The notes under the pieces are model-generated. The model made no database searches. It worked only from the letters and a program-made list of their open reading frames with translations, and was not told where the DNA came from. A DNA stretch of 64,000 bases from Collinsella sp. An2 (GTDB lineage: Bacteria > Actinomycetota > Coriobacteriia > Coriobacteriales > Coriobacteriaceae): positions 186,001-250,000 of the forward strand of contig NZ_NFJW01000002.1 of assembly GCF_002160065.1 (NCBI RefSeq), in the 5' to 3' direction. A program made the translations under genes and the position numbers. Below are positions 54,113 to 56,689 of this stretch, piece by piece. Numbering within the stretch: the first letter of the stretch is position 1; the number at the start of each line of letters is the position of its first letter.

Positions 54113-56689
54113 TCAGTACATGCGACGCACGAGATAGCAGCGATGTATGCGCGGGTTGCGGGCGAAGTCCTCGGGTATGGTCTGCGCCGAGATGTCCTCA
54201 AGCTTCACGCCGGATGCCATGAGCTCGTCCACGCGGGGCTTGAAGGAGCGCAGGTTGCACGAGAAGATCGCTTCACCGTCTGGGGTGAGCAGGTCCGCCA
54301 CGCCGCGCAACAGCTCCACGTGGTCGCGCTGGACATCGAAGGAGCGTCGTCCCATCTTGGCGGAGTTGGAGAACGTGGGCGGGTCGCAGAAGATGAGGTC
54401 CCAGCGGTTGGCCGTGCGGCGCATATCGCGGATCCAGCCGAGTACGTCGGCGCGCACATAATGGTGCTCGGGCCCGGTGAAGCCGTTGATGGCCATGTTG
54501 CGCTCTGCCCAGTCGAGATAGGTGTTGGAAAGGTCCACGGTCACCGTCTCTTCGACGCCGGCGTCGGCGGCGTAGCAGGTGGCCGTGCCCGTGTAAGCAA
54601 AGAGGTTCAAGAACCAGCGCTTGCCGCGCGCGTGTTCGCGCACCATGCCGCGCGTGACGCGGTGGTCCAAAAAGATGCCGGTGTCCAGGTAGTCATCGAA
54701 ATTCACAGCGAAGGTAAGCCCACCTTCCTCGATGAGCGGAAGCTTGCGGTCGCGTGGCGCGCCGTGGCCCGAGCCCTGGCCGGAGCCGCCAGTCCGCTTC
54801 CGGGCATACTGTGAGCCGCCGCGCGAGCGCATGCGGGCCTTTGCGTACACGTGGCGCGGGTCCACGTCCAACACGTGCGGGGCAATGGCGAGGATGTCGA
54901 GCATACGCGCCTGGGCAAGGGCGGGGTCGATAGTCTTTGGCGCGGCGTATTCCGCTATGACGAGCCAGCGTCCCGGTGTCGCGGCGCTGCCCTCGTAGAG
55001 GTCGATTGCCGCCGCGTAGTCGGGAAGATCTGCGTCGTAGACGCGGTAGCAGGTGACGCCCGTGCGCTTGGCCCAGCGGCGGCGCAGGCGGGCGACTTTC
55101 TTGAGACGGTGGGCAAACTGCTCCGATTCGGGCACGAGCACGGGGATGGGCTTGCCGTCTCCGAGGTCCACCGTTGCGGTTGCGGCGGGGGCGTCTGCGG
55201 CGGCGGAGGTACTTGCAGCAGTGGAGGCTCCTGCGGCGACTGCGTTCTGGCGGGCGTTCGCATCGCCGGACGAGGCCGTGCGACCGCGGCGGCGCGGGCT
55301 CCTCTGAGCGGAGGCGCCGGATGCGTCGCCAAGGGTGCCTGCCTCCGTGCCTGTCCCGGCGTCTGTCGCGCTCGCGGCGCTAGCCTGGACACCGTCGTTG
55401 GCTTCGGCTGCAGCGGAGCCGGTCGCGGTCGCTCCAGGATAGCGTCGTATGGTCGCCGCCTCGTTGTTGGGGCGCACCGAGAGCGTCTTGTTTGGCGCGG
55501 TGCCCAGGGCCCGGTCCATCGTGTTGTCATACGCGAGCACGGCTGCAGGGAAGGTGTTCAGCGGCGCATGGCGGCGCAGGTCGCGCATGAGCGTCACGAT
55601 GGCGGGGGCGAGCGTGATGGGAAGCTCGGTCGTGTCGGCAAGCAGGCCGCCCCGGGGCGCGACGTTCGAGACATGTTCGCTCGGCTTGGAATTGCTTGTT
55701 GCGCTGTGCGTCGCGTTTCCGCAGACGCCTGCAAGCGAGGCTTCGAAGGAGGCCGTTGTCGGCTCTACCGGGGCAATCAGGGTATCAATGCCCGACAGGT
55801 GCCACAGTCGCTGTGCAAAGGAGCGCGACTGTGGATCGGCATCGGTTGCAATGATGGAAGCGTGCCCGATTGCCTCGCAGCGGCCCGAGCCAAGCGTTGC
55901 GCGCTCATCCGCAGCGCGGCGTTCGGCTTCCCATGCCTGTTCGTCGTGCGCTCCCCAGCCCATAAAGCCCCAGCGTCGGCGGTCGAGGCCAGGGGCGCGA
56001 TCGAGCAGTTGGAGCGCGGCTTCCAGCTCGACGCCGCCGCCCGCACAGCAGGCGTCGACAAGGATGGGCGGTTGTGCCGCCTGTCCAGCATGAAACGCGC
56101 GGCAAGCCGCCGGCCAGTCCGTCTGGGCCAGCAAGAGCGCGGCGTAGTCGGGGCGAAGCACGTGGGCCTCGTGGCCGGTGGCATGGCGTGTCGCCGCGCG
56201 CGGCATACGCCTGAACAGCGGTTCTCCGGAGAGGTCGAGCGCAAGCGTTGCGCGGTGCCCGCGAAGCGAGAGCATGACGTGCGCGTCGGGGCGGTCGGTG
56301 TCCACGGAGGGGCGAATGCCTGCGACGTCCATAACGTGGTCGCAGATAGCGTCCTTGACGCGGAGCGCAGCAAAGCGCCCGTCGCGCAGCTTCTCGTTCG
56401 AGCCGTTCGTGCTCACTGCGATGGTAGCCCCCAGTCGCAAGATGGCTTCCCACGGCAGTGCGCGCGCGGACGCGTACAGGGCGTCGGCGTCGGGACAGTC
56501 GAAGCGGTCCAGGACAAGCAGGATGCGGCTGGCCAAGTGTGACCACAGGCAGGCGCGGTAGGCCTCCGCCGGCCCTCCCTCAAACGTCACGCGGCCTTGC
56601 AGCTTGCGGACGCGGGGCAGACCGAGTGCGCGGAGCTCGTTGGCAAGTGCCTCTTCGAAGCCGGCGGGACAGCTCGCATACAGTTCCAT
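54113..56689 (-). CDS. rlmKL: RlmKL-type 23S rRNA methyltransferase, RlmL half degenerate
   Basis: 858 residues (E. coli RlmKL is about 700). A THUMP-type N-terminus (MELYASCPAGFEEALANEL) precedes the RlmL-like domain, in which SAM motif I reads DACCAGGG (212-219) and the catalytic NPPYG position reads NVAPRG (342-347). A roughly 110-residue Ala/Thr/Ser/Gly-rich insert follows. The RlmK half is intact: LNLFAYTGTATCYAADAGV, TVDLSNTYLDWAERNM, FCDPPTFSNSAKMG and FSCNLRSF. RlmK makes m7G2069 and RlmL m2G2445 (E. coli numbering). Here only the RlmK activity seems secure. Confidence 0.88.
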   Translation of the reverse strand: MELYASCPAGFEEALANELRALGLPRVRKLQGRVTFEGGPAEAYRACLWSHLASRILLVLDRFDCPDADALYASARALPWEAILRLGATIAVSTNGSNEKLRDGRFAALRVKDAICDHVMDVAGIRPSVDTDRPDAHVMLSLRGHRATLALDLSGEPLFRRMPRAATRHATGHEAHVLRPDYAALLLAQTDWPAACRAFHAGQAAQPPILVDACCAGGGVELEAALQLLDRAPGLDRRRWGFMGWGAHDEQAWEAERRAADERATLGSGRCEAIGHASIIATDADPQSRSFAQRLWHLSGIDTLIAPVEPTTASFEASLAGVCGNATHSATSNSKPSEHVSNVAPRGGLLADTTELPITLAPAIVTLMRDLRRHAPLNTFPAAVLAYDNTMDRALGTAPNKTLSVRPNNEAATIRRYPGATATGSAAAEANDGVQASAASATDAGTGTEAGTLGDASGASAQRSPRRRGRTASSGDANARQNAVAAGASTAASTSAAADAPAATATVDLGDGKPIPVLVPESEQFAHRLKKVARLRRRWAKRTGVTCYRVYDADLPDYAAAIDLYEGSAATPGRWLVIAEYAAPKTIDPALAQARMLDILAIAPHVLDVDPRHVYAKARMRSRGGSQYARKRTGGSGQGSGHGAPRDRKLPLIEEGGLTFAVNFDDYLDTGIFLDHRVTRGMVREHARGKRWFLNLFAYTGTATCYAADAGVEETVTVDLSNTYLDWAERNMAINGFTGPEHHYVRADVLGWIRDMRRTANRWDLIFCDPPTFSNSAKMGRRSFDVQRDHVELLRGVADLLTPDGEAIFSCNLRSFKPRVDELMASGVKLEDISAQTIPEDFARNPRIHRCYLVRRMY

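Follow-up and report, generated by a model that had tools for sequence, protein, structure and literature searches.

The fused methyltransferase RlmKL encoded in the window (the whole stretch of 64,000 nucleotides of Collinsella sp. An2 DNA analysed here) joins an RlmK half with intact motifs to an RlmL half with broken catalytic motifs. RlmL forms m2G2445 and RlmK forms m7G2069 in 23S rRNA. Loss of RlmL catalytic activity in the window protein is well supported by its sequence. The RlmL half, a pseudo-methyltransferase that has lost motif IV, is probably retained as an rRNA-binding/assembly module for RlmK.

The gene is an open reading frame of 858 codons on the minus strand (Table 1). Its product matched the NCBIfam RlmKL equivalog PRK11783.1 with 629 bits (cut-off 466) and, in the PDB, 3v8v (9.4e-124) as well as the E. 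coli RlmKL structure 3v97; both the full-length equivalog score and the fold are those of the RlmKL fusion. PF22020, THUMP and the RlmK domains scored well above their own Pfam cut-offs. PF01170 (UPF0020), on the RlmL methyltransferase domain, reached 18.9 bits, under its cut-off of 22.3. The window RlmL has the ferredoxin-like and THUMP domains and lacks a PF01170 match above cut-off, NPPY and a regular motif I. Since PRK11783.1 passes the window protein as bifunctional, RlmL activity is over-called by the equivalog name. An artefact or frameshift was ruled out: the frame is open, the changes are common to independent assemblies of relatives, and a search of the own genome returned a 100% match to the gene.

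An earlier note on this DNA had proposed that the RlmL half is inactive and the RlmK half intact. The sequences strongly support this proposal, which holds in three families of the order: f1, the window's own family (Coriobacteriaceae), f2, presumably Atopobiaceae-like, and f3, presumably Eggerthellaceae-like. Across Coriobacteriia, where the note had called for an alignment of RlmKL, NPPY is missing in most genomes of all three. DACCAGGG, as it had pointed out, occupies the motif I position, where NPPY-bearing relatives have DPMCGSGT or a near variant. Its reading of NVAPRG as the replacement of NPPYG has to be corrected. NPPY falls in one column block for 43 of 44 NPPY-bearing relatives in the N-half alignment, where the window protein has D352-T353-T354-E355, and NVAPRG lies in the preceding variable loop. 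The placement of DTTE fits the predicted model, in which the strand 347-352 ends at D352. NPPY was also looked for elsewhere in the domain, as the note had suggested; it does not occur anywhere in the 858 residues, and the RlmL-inactive reading stands. A displaced NPPY was ruled out more widely, as PPY, PPF and PPW are absent from the first 430 residues of 135 proteins classed as dead (L half present, no NPPY or NPPF in the protein); a single PPH, in L113, is in the wrong place. Both FLNLFAYTG and DPPTFSNS are present in the RlmK domain, the latter normal as had been claimed. The RlmK half is expected to be active, and m2G2445 is expected to be absent.

Table 1. Features of the window rlmKL gene and its product
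Feature	Positions	Strand	Evidence
rlmKL, RlmL half degenerate, RlmK half intact	54113..56689	-	ORF; PRK11783.1; 3v8v
RlmL N-terminal ferredoxin-like domain, residues 2-57, kept	56519..56686	-	PF22020 72.3 bits; pLDDT ~98
THUMP RNA-binding domain, residues 67-152, kept	56234..56491	-	PF02926 61.7 bits
Degenerate RlmL methyltransferase domain, residues ~166-420	55430..56194	-	PF01170 below cut-off; fold match Z 33-34 (residues 1-429)
Motif I position, DACCAGGG, residues 212-219	56033..56056	-	Alignment with NPPY-bearing relatives
Conserved insert RAPG..R..WGF..W..HD..W..R, residues 231-263, kept	55901..55999	-	Live-conserved residues 91-94% retained across f1-f3
Motif IV position, D352-T353-T354-E355 in place of NPPY	55625..55636	-	Alignment
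NVAPRG, residues 342-347, variable loop, not motif IV	55649..55666	-	Alignment
Ala/Thr-rich linker between the halves, residues ~421-510, predicted disordered	55160..55429	-	pLDDT <50 at 433-497; dN/dS 0.57
RlmK half, residues 511-858, motifs intact	54116..55159	-	PF10672 69.7 bits; aligned to 3v8v residues 389-700
RlmK motif DPPTFSNS, residues 769-776	54362..54385	-	Sequence

Two further suggestions of the note fared less well. The Ala/Thr-rich insert that it had called unusual is real, but its length is within the range of the family: the linker measures 30-103 residues in 34 f1 proteins, compared with group medians of 22-27 for f2, f3 and most others. As it is predicted to be disordered and varies in length in f1, the linker appears ordinary and needs no special explanation. 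Methylation of G2445 by another enzyme, the option left open by the note, found no support in the window genome. No second RlmL or RlmKL was found by searches of that genome. The THUMP proteins over cut-off are this RlmKL and ThiI only, and PF01170/UPF0020 gave two matches over cut-off, to an RlmD-like enzyme and to PrmC. The two substrate positions, which we take to be 2445 and 2069 by E. coli numbering, are both still G in the 23S rRNA of the genome (GGGGATAACAGGCT and GACCCCGTGAACC).

To describe the spread of the loss, loci were tallied for 166 genomes drawn from two homologue searches; loci were examined for 130 of the 170 genomes matched by the first. A further 29 loci (28 from Coriobacteriia, one from a planctomycete) were read outside this tally, and L169-L178 and L251-L280 are table rows only, their sequences lying outside the analysis. 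In f1, f2 and f3 together, the K-bearing gene has no NPPY in 102 of 116 genomes; in 11 the locus is without an RlmL half (a contig end in two cases), and three are intact. By family, 34 of 40 f1 genomes are dead and six are without the L half, including L063 and L071, which are tallied as absent and sit at contig ends. The K-bearing copy is dead in all 43 f2 genomes, four of which have a second copy. The f3 genomes comprise 25 dead, five with stand-alone RlmK and three intact among 33. L073 was classed as dead despite a run of N within its L half. Outside the three families, 44 of the 50 genomes examined in the class have an intact RlmKL: f26 (3/3) and f29 (1/1) are dead, and in the remaining families 44 of 46 are intact, with two, L199 and L212, cut off at contig ends. 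In nine genomes (four f1, five f3) RlmK stands alone and the upstream DNA examined contains no L half; the L half can thus be dispensed with in places. The titles and abstract openings searched, mostly outside the subscription literature, contain no description of RlmL loss in Coriobacteriales, and the accessible parts of PMC10415138 and PMC9957541 contain nothing on motif IV variants.

Some loci also depart from the usual pattern in RlmK. Five f3 genomes (G004, G162, G179, G185, G189) gave no RlmKL match at E 1e-30, and RlmK may be lost there too. L213 (G277) has an L half without NPPY and the RlmK motif GPPTFSNS, its first Asp also being changed. In most f2 K-bearing copies (f2 loci among L075-L120) this motif reads DVPTFSNS.

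The RlmK tree unites the f1 and f2 enzymes in one starred group and places those of f3 outside it; this and all other trees are quick trees with SH-aLRT support only. An AU test on the RlmK portion rejected a single clade uniting every f1-f3 enzyme whose L half is dead or missing (p-AU 0.00012; 43 chosen rows, a quick tree, and a tested group named after an earlier tree had been seen). The rejection supports at least two independent losses of RlmL, to which f26 and f29 would add more. One loss of motif IV would fall in the line shared by f1 and f2 and a separate one in f3.

The dead L halves were compared with 40 live enzymes at 81 positions of at least 90% identity among the latter (live-conserved positions), using de-duplicated representatives (18 f1, 27 f2 and 18 f3) for these and the rate figures. 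In dead f1, f2 and f3 enzymes, respectively, live-conserved residues are kept at 83, 84 and 85% in the ferredoxin-like and THUMP domains and at 91, 94 and 94% in the insert that follows motif I. The corresponding values are 44, 30 and 60% at motif I, the first Asp of which is kept in f1, and 6, 1 and 24% at motif IV. The L core of dead enzymes evolves 2 to 3 times faster. Relative to RlmK, and from pairs that share sequences and hence are non-independent, the rate of the C-terminal L core is 4.71 (f1 and f2) and 3.82 (f3) versus 1.76 in live enzymes, that of the N-terminal L core 1.91 and 2.19 versus 0.84, and that of the ferredoxin-like and THUMP domains 1.58 and 1.62 versus 1.08. For Collinsella, an f1 genus represented by 46 sequences, dN/dS pooled from 43 pairs rises along the L half from 0.25 through 0.35 to 0.45, compared with 0.21 for RlmK and 0.57 for the linker. 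Values below 1, together with the kept residues, indicate that the L half is constrained, and least so where catalysis happens. The predicted fold of the window RlmKL is confident (mean pLDDT 87.9).

The changed residues are themselves partly conserved. The first motif IV position is Asp in 40 of 45 f1 and f2 representatives, and motif IV reads DLSW in 18 of 27 f2 representatives. Other THUMP m2G enzymes may have DLPF or NLPY at motif IV, a comparison given no weight here. R179, D181 and Y182 are present at 95-100% in f1 and f2, at positions where live enzymes mostly have K, T and L; R179-P-D181-Y182 (window 56144-56155) is a signature of f1 and f2 dead L halves not seen in live ones. The conserved Asp/DLSW and these three residues keep an altered activity among the readings to be weighed.

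A mirror-image arrangement was found in f2. Four genomes (G158, G180, G192 and G265) carry a second RlmKL, copy B, in which motif I and NPPYG are intact and the RlmK motifs are broken. Copy-B genes (L181, L182, L184, L185, L219-L230, L238-L249) occur in the f2 genera g35, g41, g152 and g153. When the copy-B L half was searched against 140 genomes of the f2 family, 38 matched at E <1e-90 (genera g35, g41, g151, g152 and g153); the next-best matches, at 1e-78 and weaker, are in the copy-A range. Among 27 distinct copy-B genes read (29 rows with two re-reads), NPPYG is kept in all 27 and the RlmK motifs are broken in 26; in one, from G311 (g151), both halves are intact. All 11 copy-A genes read alongside have the RlmK motifs and lack NPPY. 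A copy-A search of 14 genomes found both genes in 11 and copy B only in G311, G353 and G316, whose assemblies are 83-89% complete. Both halves of the copy-B protein L181 fold confidently in prediction (mean pLDDT 91.4).

The copy-B L halves and the G311 gene form one group (99, starred), and the RlmK half of that gene (L250) sits among f3 enzymes, not those of f2 (95, starred). Placing f2, with the intact G311 gene included, in one clade was also rejected by an AU test (p 0.011, for 43 chosen rows, a quick tree and a post-hoc group). The G311 gene is possibly a transfer intermediate or a misbinned contig. Most simply, an f3-like donor would have passed a bifunctional RlmKL to one f2 sublineage, and copies A and B would then have decayed reciprocally. 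Copy A would methylate G2069 and carry a dead RlmL, and copy B would methylate G2445 and carry a dead RlmK; each would keep its dead half because both halves are needed to grip helix 74.

At the level of sequence and prediction, the loss of motif IV, the retained fold and non-catalytic residues, purifying selection, at least two losses and the mirror-image f2 paralogs are established. By analogy, the kept L half would have a role in RNA binding or assembly. Its ancestor would have methylated G2445 of 23S rRNA. The ferredoxin-like, THUMP and insert surface would still bind, and perhaps open, the helix that holds G2069 and G2445, and this binding would help the intact RlmK reach its target and aid 50S assembly without methylation. 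Retention of surface binding would then account for the L half being kept in most lineages. According to the accessible part of PMC11194073, E. coli RlmL N309A makes no m2G2445 and yet stimulates 50S assembly like active RlmL, an effect observed in a strain lacking ten enzymes; RlmK is reported there to work alone in E. coli. N309 is presumably the Asn of NPPY. The natural dead L halves, with binding features kept and catalysis gone, fit this result. Besides the restriction of the assembly effect to that strain and the reported independence of RlmK in E. coli, two findings count against the proposed role, namely the absence of the L half in the nine stand-alone RlmK genomes and the conserved Asp/DLSW at motif IV, which is unexpected under plain loss of function.

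The same nine genomes, together with the faster evolution of the L core, would agree with passive decay, in which a useless L half is carried along by fusion to an indispensable RlmK and is heading for deletion. Such decay is unlikely, since the open frame is maintained in 102 genomes of three families, dN/dS along the L half is 0.25-0.45, the insert retains 91-94% and the ferredoxin-like/THUMP part 83-85% of live-conserved residues, and the predicted fold is confident. It is very unlikely that the L half is an altered enzyme still acting on G2445 or a different base with its atypical motif IV, DLSW in f2 and DTTE in the window protein. Both motif IV prolines are gone and the fourth residue in the window is non-aromatic; N309A alone kills m2G2445 in E. 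coli (PMC11194073, accessible part); the L core is relaxed alike in f1, f2 and f3; and some f2 genomes have gained a further gene whose RlmL motifs are intact. These points are set against the conserved Asp, DLSW and R179/D181/Y182 residues and the first Asp of motif I retained in f1, all of which speak for an altered enzyme.

An unrelated enzyme could instead still make m2G2445 in the window organism, which would explain the dead L half. G2445 is indeed unchanged, and searches detect only recognisable relatives. This explanation is nevertheless very unlikely, as the window genome has no further THUMP/UPF0020 candidate and the gain of intact RlmL motifs by part of f2 would have been needless if a substitute existed there. 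The wider proposal, that the RlmL half was repurposed more than once as an rRNA-binding/assembly module in three families and that an acquired pair in f2 decayed reciprocally with its dead halves kept, is tentative, though a serious candidate. If true, it would be a natural separation of binding from catalysis in a fused rRNA modification enzyme.

It has long been asked why rRNA modification enzymes persist although the marks they make appear dispensable. Evolution apparently ran the dead-RlmL experiment on more than one occasion across whole families, in one case in mirror image, which makes the question of a retained dead enzyme directly testable in Coriobacteriales. Among known systems, E. 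coli RlmKL (YcbY; 3v8v, 3v97) resembles the window protein in fusion order, domains and intact RlmK motifs, and in fold (Z 37 over 661-662 residues); the window protein differs in having DTTE for NPPY, a changed motif I and a longer linker. The stand-alone RlmL-like proteins 3ldu, 3ldg and 3k0b share the L-half fold (Z 33-34), but they lack the fusion to RlmK seen in the window protein, whose L half matches PF01170 below cut-off. The closest functional parallel is E. coli RlmL(N309A), for which the accessible part of PMC11194073 describes a change of Asn-309 that abolishes m2G2445; in the window protein the aligned NPPY is gone. That change was engineered, whereas the loss seen in the window is natural and common to whole families.
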